A stretch of DNA of 64,000 nucleotides from positions 1 through 64,000 of the forward strand of contig PKDC01000013.1 of assembly GCA_002862435.1 (NCBI GenBank). Direction: 5' to 3'. Below the pieces are notes generated by a model. The model was given only the letters and a program-made list of their open reading frames with translations. It ran no database searches and was not told the DNA's origin. This document shows, one piece after another, positions 19,495-22,159 of this stretch. Source of the DNA: Pseudomonadota bacterium (GTDB taxonomy: Bacteria; Pseudomonadota; Gammaproteobacteria; UBA5335). Each line of letters begins with the position of its first letter. The stretch's first letter is position 1. A program made the position numbers and the translations under genes.

Positions 19495-19806
19495 GGGTGT
19501 CTCCGCTTTGTGGGGCCTGATAAATATTCGTGCTAACCATATACCAATGCCGACGATCAGTCCGATCCGATCAAGCGGGACATCCTCCACGTTTCGACAA
19601 GGTGGACGCAAACGGGTTGCAAAGGGCTGAACCAACTCAAAAGCCTTTGTCCATCCAGCTCGCGGCAGAAAATTGTGGAACAATCGCCGATCGAGGCGGC
19701 GCGGCTGTGCAAGGCGGTAAATCCCCGCTCGCATCGGGTACGAAGGGTCGCACGCCCCGAGGCGTCAGGTCCATGGCGCGCTGCCGATGAAGTGCACAAT
19801 GATTGC

Positions 19807-19960
19807 ATGGATGCTGATGTGACCAAGGAAGCCACCGCCCGCATCAAGATCAACCGGCTGCCGGTTATTCGCCGACGGCGCGCTGCCGGCCCAATTCAGG
19901 CTTGAACCCGGCCATTTTTTCCTTGCGCTGTCGCTGACTTGATCGCGGGCGGCAGGATAG
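19807..19960 (+). pseudogene. Remnant of N-terminus of type I restriction HsdR-like/DEAD helicase subunit (frameshifted)
   Basis: MDADVTKEATARIKINRL then, after frame change, LFADGALPAQFRLEPGHFF, resembling the family N-terminus KEAxARIKINxLLxxAGW(R)FFxDGxxPANIxLE. Confidence 0.5.
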
Positions 19961-20015
19961 AGCGCCAAGGTGAAAGGCGCGGGGCACGATACCGCTTAAA
20001 TAGCGAGGGCAACGG

Positions 20016-21887
20016 ATGAGCAACGAACGCTTTCCCGCTGATCTGATCGTATCGGTCCAGGATTTCGTCGACTCAGGTTGGAAGTCGGCGCTGGAGCAGG
20101 CCTCTCGCGAGGGATATTCGGCAATGTGGCAGGCATTCTCTGCTGCTGCGCGTTCGGCCATGGAGGAAGGTCGCAATGAGCACGGGAAGGTGCTCTGGCT
20201 GCTTGCCCATGCCTGCTCGATGAGGCTGTTGCCGTCGAGTCAGAACGATCCATTCGAACCCTCCCCGGTATTCCGCAATCGCCGGTCGGTCATTCCGGAC
20301 GATCTATTTGAAGCTGACATCCAATTTTTTGCCGAGATCGTCGATGCGGTAGACGACATCTGGCTGAAGGCGAGACTTGCCGATCTGGCTTGGCTGAAAA
20401 GAAAGCCGAGAGGTGTGGCGTTCGCACTTACGGCCATCGACGCTTACCGTTCCATTCCGCTGGACACGGAGACGTGGATTCGCGGTGGTCAGGAATGTTG
20501 GGAGCGAGCCATCAGCTTGGCCCGGATGCTCAAAGCCGGTGCGGGCGATCGGCTTAAGCAAATGGAGGTTTCTATCGTCGCTTCGTTCAATGCCGCAACG
20601 CGACAAGACGGTTTCCTTGGGTACTGGTTAGCGGACCTGCTGAAAACGAACGGATTGGGAGAGCTCCATCGAACTGATATCGCGCAGAAGCTTGAATCTC
20701 TGGCTCGGGAGTTCGATAGCGAAGGCGATCTGAACAGGGCGCGGGAGTATTTCTCTGCGTCCTCCGACTGGTACAGAACTATCCCTGACGAAGCAAAAGC
20801 AGCCGAGATGATGGCGTCTGTCGCCGAGGGCTGGGTCAAGGGGGCCATCGCCCAGGTCTCGTCGGACAACCCGAGTCACGGGGTGGCAGCGAGCTTCTTC
20901 GAGAATGCCATCCAGACCTATCGAACGATCCCCAGAGCCGAGCGAAACGCGCATCGAGTCGATGAGAGGATCGCTGAACTTCGCGCCCATCTGAATGAGT
21001 CTGGAGAGAAAGCTCTGGGCGAAATGCAACTGATCAGCACCCCGGGCGTCGACATCACTCAATTCGTCGAGAACGCTCGAAAGTCTGTCAGCGGGAAATC
21101 GACCACCGAGGCGCTACTGGCTTTCGCCAACCTTCATTGTGGAGTGAAGGTCGACGAGATGCGCGAGCGTGCACTTAAGCAAATGCAGCAGTTTGTATCC
21201 TATTTGCTCTTTTCTTCAACGGTGATGAGCTGCGATGGCCGAGTGATTGCCAAACATCCGGCCATGAGATTTGGTGCAGAGCCCTCGGAAGACGACGAAA
21301 TCGCCATCCGCGCTGAAATGATTCATGACTACGGCATTCTGGTCAGCATCGTGGTTCATGGCGATATCTGGCCTGCACTTGAAGTTCTGCTGCTCGAACA
21401 TCGGCTGCGCGAGGCCGATTTCATCGGCCTTGCCAATCAATCACCCATCATCCCGAAGGGGAGAGCCGGGCTTTTCGGCAAGGCCTTGTTCGCGGGTTTC
21501 GACCGGGATTTCGTCACGGCACTGCACCTATTGATACCGCAGATCGAGCACTTGGTTCGCGTACATCTCAAGCAGGCAGGGGCCAAGACGACGAATCTCG
21601 ACAAGGATGGCATTGAGAACGAAAACGGGATGAGCACCTTAATGGACCTGCCAGAAGCCGAGCAGGTTTTCGGCAAGGACCTCGCCTTTGAGCTCAAGGC
21701 GCTTTTCTGCGATCCCTTCGGACCCAATCTGCGCAACGAACTGGCCCACGGGCTGCTTGACGAAGAAGCATGCCATTCACCGGCTGCCATTTATGCGTGG
21801 TGGTTAGGGTTGCAGCTAGTCTTCAAGACCTGGTGGAATATGGCGCACAAGAACAGTACAGAGGGCGAGGTGGATGCCGATGGCTGA
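20016..21887 (+). CDS. Large uncharacterised protein with C-terminal RNxxxHG (DUF4209-like / HEPN-like R-x4-H) motif
   Basis: ORF 623 aa, intact; alpha-helical; C-terminus FCDPFGPNLRNELAHGLLDEEACHSPAAIYAWWLGLQLVFKTW. Confidence 0.85.
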   Translation: MSNERFPADLIVSVQDFVDSGWKSALEQASREGYSAMWQAFSAAARSAMEEGRNEHGKVLWLLAHACSMRLLPSSQNDPFEPSPVFRNRRSVIPDDLFEADIQFFAEIVDAVDDIWLKARLADLAWLKRKPRGVAFALTAIDAYRSIPLDTETWIRGGQECWERAISLARMLKAGAGDRLKQMEVSIVASFNAATRQDGFLGYWLADLLKTNGLGELHRTDIAQKLESLAREFDSEGDLNRAREYFSASSDWYRTIPDEAKAAEMMASVAEGWVKGAIAQVSSDNPSHGVAASFFENAIQTYRTIPRAERNAHRVDERIAELRAHLNESGEKALGEMQLISTPGVDITQFVENARKSVSGKSTTEALLAFANLHCGVKVDEMRERALKQMQQFVSYLLFSSTVMSCDGRVIAKHPAMRFGAEPSEDDEIAIRAEMIHDYGILVSIVVHGDIWPALEVLLLEHRLREADFIGLANQSPIIPKGRAGLFGKALFAGFDRDFVTALHLLIPQIEHLVRVHLKQAGAKTTNLDKDGIENENGMSTLMDLPEAEQVFGKDLAFELKALFCDPFGPNLRNELAHGLLDEEACHSPAAIYAWWLGLQLVFKTWWNMAHKNSTEGEVDADG

Positions 21888-21897
21888 GTTATAAAAA

Positions 21898-22075
21898 ATG
21901 ACGGTCGACCTGAACGTGCTCGACCACCTCGGGATCAACCTATACAGCACATCGCCGCCATTCTGACCGAGTCCTAGCTAACGCCTGGAACGCTGCGCCG
22001 AGACCGTCGACATCATGATCGACAAAGATCAGAACATCATCGATGACGGTCAGTTTCAGGTGCACATCGTCACAG
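21898..22075 (+). pseudogene. Frameshifted N-terminal remnant of HSP90-like (GHKL) ATPase protein
   Basis: Pieces in three frames: MTVDLNVLDHLGINLYS / IAAILTE / VLANAWNA / ETVDIMIDKDQNIIDDG, collinear with the N-box of GHKL proteins (LxEVVANAWDADA...IxxDG). Confidence 0.6.
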
Positions 22076-22159
22076 TGGGCGGATCTTGGTGCGGTACACG
22101 TCCTGCCAGATCCGGTGATCGGTATGGGTCGTCATGCGCCAAGGCGGATGGCTGTGGCA

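Follow-up and report, generated by a model that had tools for sequence, protein, structure and literature searches.

The window, by which we mean the whole stretch of 64,000 nucleotides analysed, carries at 20016–21887 of its forward strand a stop-free open reading frame (ORF) that runs from ATG to TGA and encodes 623 amino acids, intact as the first-pass annotation had described it. Its neighbours are a cydA-type oxidase gene on the minus strand and, on the other side, an Rrf2-type regulator and suf genes, which agrees with the earlier placement between a cytochrome oxidase and a suf block. In two sister genomes, G003 and G002, both species of the window's genus, the site is empty and the cydA-type gene directly neighbours the Rrf2 regulator: ~140–190 bp separate the aligned blocks, compared with 2.64 kb in the window, and blastn against the corresponding loci (L107 in G003, L106 in G002) places the junctions at 19507 and 22150–22151. 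The insert has no terminal repeats, only short chance-like pairs, and contains no integrase ORF.

The gene is present in two of 37 relatives (window genome counted), the other being G003, where it lies elsewhere in the genome. That second copy (L004:10511–12404, G003:C15) consists of two overlapping frames close to the end of its contig, a split that may reflect decay or an assembly error. At the window locus no RNA families were found, and no sigma-70-like promoter was found near the ORF, so its expression here is uncertain. The features are as follows:

19508–22149, no strand: the entire insertion, from the cydA-type gene to the Rrf2 regulator (blastn junctions)
19795–19902, plus strand: possible remnant of an HsdR N-terminus, MDADVTKEATARIKINRL..., picked out by eye in a six-frame translation, with a frameshift
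19925–20019, plus strand: 3' end of drmMI, the class 1 DISARM adenine methyltransferase gene, VADLIAGGRIERQGERRGARYRLNSEGNG* (blastx, blastn, alignment, in-frame reading)
20016–21887, plus strand: the whole ORF, a DUF7380–solenoid–DUF4209 protein and predicted HEPN RNase effector (full-length PADLOC PDC-S39 match, model, tree, alignments)
20043–20546, plus strand: DUF7380 domain, aa 10–177 (PF24098, E 7.1e-49)
20616–20900, plus strand: middle part, a helical repeat (TPR-like), about aa 201–295 and beyond (profile search, fold search, model helices)
21537–21560, plus strand: PQIEHLVR, of the form PQxExxxR, aa 508–515, with the HEPN Ex3[KR] motif (invariant in alignments, 57/57)
21543–21812, plus strand: DUF4209 domain, aa 510–599, predicted HEPN (PF13910, E 1.4e-23; C-terminal model)
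21732–21752, plus strand: RNELAHG, aa 573–579, the R-x4-H catalytic signature (invariant in alignments, 57/57)
21900–22002 or a little beyond, plus strand: degenerate 5' part of a gene for a BbrUII/HgiDII-type GHKL restriction enzyme, MTVDLNVLDHLGINLYS... (blastn, alignment)

Domain architecture and HEPN signature

The protein begins with a DUF7380 domain that the first-pass annotation had missed (E 7e-49; 166.5 bits against a Pfam gathering cut-off of 27), continues with a middle part whose profile matches the TPRs of kinesin light chain (E 5e-5), and ends in a DUF4209 domain (83.2 bits against a cut-off of 22.3), the family to which it had been assigned from its motif. Over its full length (aa 1–615, E 2.9e-255, model PDLC05012) it matches PDC-S39, a single-gene phage-defence candidate in PADLOC, and the family has thus been listed before. 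PDC-S39 (models PDLC05012 and PDLC05011) matches the ORF protein over its full length but is listed as a single-gene candidate, whereas the relatives of the ORF are optional members of class 1 DISARM and type I restriction-modification (R-M) operons. NCBIfam holds no model for the protein, and the two PHROGs families that match it are both without function.

Catalytic HEPN domains carry R-x4-6-H, with a polar residue after the arginine, and an upstream Ex3[KR] motif (PMC3710099). Both are found throughout this family: R[NHD]xxxHG and the upstream PQxExxxR are kept in all 57 full-length homologues collected, and six residues (R573, H578, G579, Q509, E511 and R515) show no variation across an 18-sequence alignment in which identity falls to 21%, or across a 42-sequence alignment of mostly closer homologues. 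RNELAHG, which had been read at codons 21732–21752 and corresponds to R573–G579, is therefore not a chance occurrence of the R-x4-H signature.

An AlphaFold model built with 42 sequences is almost entirely helix, as the first reading of the sequence had anticipated, with a pLDDT of 89 for the whole protein and 95 for aa 421–614. Because a fold search with the full chain returned mainly TPR and other solenoid proteins, the C-terminal part was modelled separately. Csm6 is a HEPN RNase, and its chains took ranks 1, 2, 3 and 5 when the mostly helical C-terminal model was compared with the PDB; the expected likeness to a HEPN fold thus has Csm6 as its nearest structure but at E 0.14–0.7, below significance, and the resemblance of the two domains is suggestive only. 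Sequence searches of the PDB returned no HEPN relative of the ORF protein and nothing beyond TPR repeats.

DUF4209 was placed in HEPN in 2013 as the C6orf70 family, whose members were noted to be fused to TPRs and to occur in operons related to R-M (PMC3710099). With that family the ORF protein shares the DUF4209 domain, R-x4-H, Ex3R, the TPR fusion and the R-M-related operons, whereas the eukaryotic C6orf70 members have a transmembrane segment that it does not (PMC3710099); DUF7380 was not seen among the domain names of that paper. The family and its HEPN assignment were accordingly known computationally already, as a PADLOC candidate and a HEPN member, and the earlier description of the protein as uncharacterised holds in the experimental sense: we found no report in the literature of activity or phage protection for any family member. 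We likewise found no paper on DUF4209 in DISARM, a full-text search for DUF4209, with subscription literature mostly outside its reach, leading to the 2013 HEPN paper alone.

Remnants of a class 1 DISARM operon

Pieces of DISARM, a system described later than the 2013 HEPN paper, adjoin the ORF on both sides. Upstream, the last ~30 codons of drmMI remain in frame, and their TGA overlaps the ATG of the ORF; intact operons have a similar stop–start overlap between drmMI and the homologue. The tail matches the DrmMI C-termini of L056, L060, L075 and L054 by blastx at E 1e-6 to 1e-4 (L056 and L060 at 1e-6) and is 80% identical to L056 over 72 nt by blastn. Downstream, the GHKL stump matches L075 (blastn, E 3e-14), where the intact gene encodes a BbrUII/HgiDII restriction enzyme (NF050001, E 5e-258) and starts at nearly the same distance behind the homologue as in the window; within ~106 aligned nt, the stump has suffered two 1-nt indels that shift the frame and a 3-nt deletion. 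The GHKL-ATPase remnant of the first-pass annotation (21900–22002 or a little beyond) is thus confirmed, and its restriction remnant stands as the DrmMI tail at about 19925–20018. The HsdR-like piece at about 19795–19902 has no such confirming match: it looked convincing by eye as the start of HsdR, but tblastn against plasmids and 274 genomes gave no relative.

In the protein tree, the window protein lies among the DISARM-embedded homologues of L056, L075, L055, L082 and L054, and a supported split (97/85) places it with the group of L056, L075 and L055. Measured against the class 1 DISARM set of drmA, drmB, drmMI and drmD, the locus has the drmMI tail only, and DrmA, DrmMI and DrmD have no match elsewhere in the window genome, the assembly of which is ~96% complete. 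The window locus is a DISARM remnant and no DISARM system, and the ORF is the only intact gene of the former DISARM cluster here; it stands alone today, as had been said of it, but as the leftover of an operon. The simplest history would be that a DISARM operon with the gene arrived and then lost both sides, the deletion having occurred in this lineage or before the fragment's arrival.

One explanation for such a survivor is that it is a dying relic, intact by recency and neither expressed nor under selection. Its neighbours are truncated, no consensus promoter was found near it, the same-genus copy in G003 is split, and the copies at L083, L096 and L099 are broken, so retention of the gene is not universal. 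Against this, the ORF has no net frameshift in 1869 nt, compared with two in ~106 nt of the adjoining stump, and among the codons on which five DISARM-embedded relatives agree, the window shows 8 synonymous changes and 1 nonsynonymous change, similar to those relatives. Pairwise dN is ~0.17 and dS exceeds 1.3 (near saturation), and the dN/dS of ~0.1 to relatives averages over all of the gene's past and not just the period after the deletion; the decay of the GHKL stump could also be partly older than the deletion. The comparisons favour continued selection on the ORF, and we consider it unlikely that the window copy is a mere relic.

Genomic company of the homologues

We compared the neighbourhoods of 65 loci, which form no random sample. 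In eight of them (L054, L055, L056, L059, L060, L061, L075 and L082) the gene lies between drmMI and drmA; L075 was checked gene by gene with PADLOC, and the other seven were assigned by similarity to it. The order in L075 is drmMII-like methylase, drmD, drmMI, homologue, GHKL gene, drmA, drmB and drmC, so that the BbrUII/HgiDII-family GHKL enzyme (L075:11886–13817, plus strand) lies within a class 1 DISARM operon, flanked by the DUF4209 gene and drmA. In L056, genes for a HATPase_c_3 and a Methyltransf_35 protein occupy this slot as well (L056:11912–14347, plus strand). Class 1 DrmD occurs in 4 of 369 genomes of the class, and a DISARM placement in 8 of 65 loci is far above random expectation, for a sample that is itself non-random. 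DISARM loci without the gene are common; it is absent from all four sampled in the class, two of which are incomplete, and is therefore optional.

In seven further loci (L064, L068, L069, L074, L079, L081 and L096) the gene stands behind hsdS in a type I R-M operon, and downstream of it comes hsdR, what is left of an hsdR, or a gene of the Schlafen-AlbA type; a 184-aa gene intervenes in L069, and the contig of L081 holds just the end of hsdS. Other settings include L097, where a type IIG methyltransferase precedes the homologue and Schlafen and Druantia-like genes follow it, and plasmid copies that overlap or adjoin genes of the type III R-M type: the copy in L034 overlaps a type III methyltransferase, and that in L030 precedes a methyltransferase–helicase pair. 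A gene of the Schlafen AlbA-2 type often lies directly 3' of the DUF4209 gene (L064, L062, L068, L071, L079 and L097), as if the two were co-travelling. Stumps of host operons beside the gene occur in places besides the window: hsdM is represented in L071 by its first ~64 codons just upstream of the homologue, L074 has the initial 29 codons of an hsdR-like gene immediately downstream, and in L090 a broken piece resembles part of an ORF labelled hsdM.

P2-like prophages and phages carry the gene between gpA and the portal gene, and the P2 gpA–gpQ region is an antiviral hotspot with proven defence genes (PMC9122126). The version in this hotspot, ORF612 of a P2-like prophage (AM157366), is homologous to the ORF protein over 96% of its length, but at 22% identity it represents a distant subfamily (phrog_5183); we found no report in the literature of a phage-defence assay of ORF612. 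ORF612-like versions occur in 20 of 5426 complete E. coli genomes, with the gpA–portal position in both of the two inspected. In three viral contigs (L027, L028 and L029) the gene comes directly behind a phage integrase-like gene, which makes this the third type of mobile context.

Matches reach 75% identity in distant proteobacteria and 60% on an archaeal contig. No small partner gene recurs beside the family, and a toxin–antitoxin pair was rejected on that ground. The defence association suspected at the outset is thus seen in DISARM, in type I R-M operons and in the P2 hotspot, and the homologues do not sit in constant housekeeping contexts.

This company invites comparison with the anticodon nucleases PrrC and RloC, both of which have a C-terminal HEPN nuclease, as is predicted for the ORF protein. 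PrrC shares with the ORF family a location in R-M operons, and RloC the self-locking that we propose below; the ABC ATPase part of both, for which the ORF protein has no Pfam match, is replaced in it by DUF7380 and TPR-like repeats. If the protein were a guard of the PrrC kind, it would be silenced by a DISARM or R-M partner, freed when a phage inhibits that partner, and useless or harmful alone. The 15 of 65 loci in R-M or DISARM operons do recall the placement of PrrC within hsdMSR, whose R-M enzyme keeps this HEPN nuclease silent (PMC3710099). However, the gene is intact in a window genome without DrmA, DrmMI and DrmD, most homologues lie outside such operons, many of them in phages and plasmids, and the partners are unrelated (DISARM, type I R-M, Druantia-like genes), which makes a single fixed partner contact unlikely; RloC, moreover, shows that the N-terminal part of a HEPN nuclease can itself do the locking (PMC3710099). 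Since the gene is intact without any DISARM gene and keeps the company of unrelated systems or of none, a fixed silencing partner is improbable, and we give the guard explanation only a small chance. A self-locked sensor–effector like RloC or Tha fits better.

Proposed function and its meaning for the family

We propose, with a probability of roughly 70%, that the ORF encodes a self-contained HEPN RNase effector of phage defence, probably acting by abortive infection, that outlived its DISARM operon. The steps that we envisage may be set out as follows:

(i) DUF7380 and the TPR-like part would act as sensor and lock and, upon sensing a phage-derived signal, would release the HEPN domain.

(ii) The C-terminal DUF4209 (HEPN) domain, probably as a dimer, would cleave RNA metal-independently via R573 and H578, and this cleavage would lead to a translation stop or the death of the infected cell.

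(iii) In other genomes, the gene would often serve as a second line carried by a first-line system, class 1 DISARM or type I R-M, in whose operon it follows the modification genes and precedes the gene for the helicase or restriction enzyme.

(iv) Here, deletion would have reduced the host DISARM operon to the tail of drmMI upstream and the head of the GHKL gene downstream, leaving the ORF alone intact, which suggests that the protein can act without its operon.

Two described systems come close to this scheme. Tha, from an S. aureus prophage, is a single prophage-encoded protein with a C-terminal HEPN domain, an R-x4-H motif and abortive-infection behaviour, and the histidine of its motif is needed for defence; it differs in its length of 301 aa, in an N-terminal domain unmatched in the ORF protein and in having phage tail proteins as its trigger (PMC11087260). 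The backup effectors embedded in BREX are HEPN and Schlafen RNase genes that form a second line in a modification–restriction operon; Schlafen-AlbA genes also adjoin the ORF family, but the carrier is BREX there and DISARM or type I R-M here, and the BREX study does not mention DUF4209 (PMC12839542).

It is very improbable that the protein is an RNA-turnover or stress RNase without a phage role, as the overlap of DUF4209 with the C6orf70 family and the ER-linked RNA-decay role predicted for eukaryotic C6orf70/ERMARD (PMC3710099) might suggest, given that the gene is patchily distributed and has been transferred (distant proteobacteria at 75% identity, an archaeal contig at 60%), a presence in only two of 37 relatives, window genome included, and locations in defence operons and a prophage hotspot.

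One of the four class 1 DISARM loci sampled in the class, none of which has the DUF4209 gene, holds an RT-UG5-nitrilase gene in the gap between drmMI and drmA (L118:4440–7622, minus strand; PADLOC E 1.6e-285). Anti-phage activity has been reported for the RT-UG5-nitrilase type (PMC9122126), and its presence there makes the gap resemble a cargo slot. We accordingly put forward, with confidence evenly divided for and against, that the gap between modification and helicase genes in class 1 DISARM is a slot for independent second-line genes (the DUF7380–DUF4209 HEPN RNase, the BbrUII-type GHKL enzyme and the RT-UG5-nitrilase), that cargo of this kind can survive the loss of its carrier and come under selection of its own, and that the window would then be a case in which the backup alone persists after loss of the primary system.

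These findings give PDC-S39, until now a listed defence candidate, a definite place within the operons of DISARM and type I R-M systems, and in the window locus nature has made the deletion experiment. Should the gene function on its own, as this locus suggests, it would be a self-locking RNase effector amenable to single-gene tests, and the gap between drmMI and drmA suggests itself as a place in which to seek further unrecognised immune genes.
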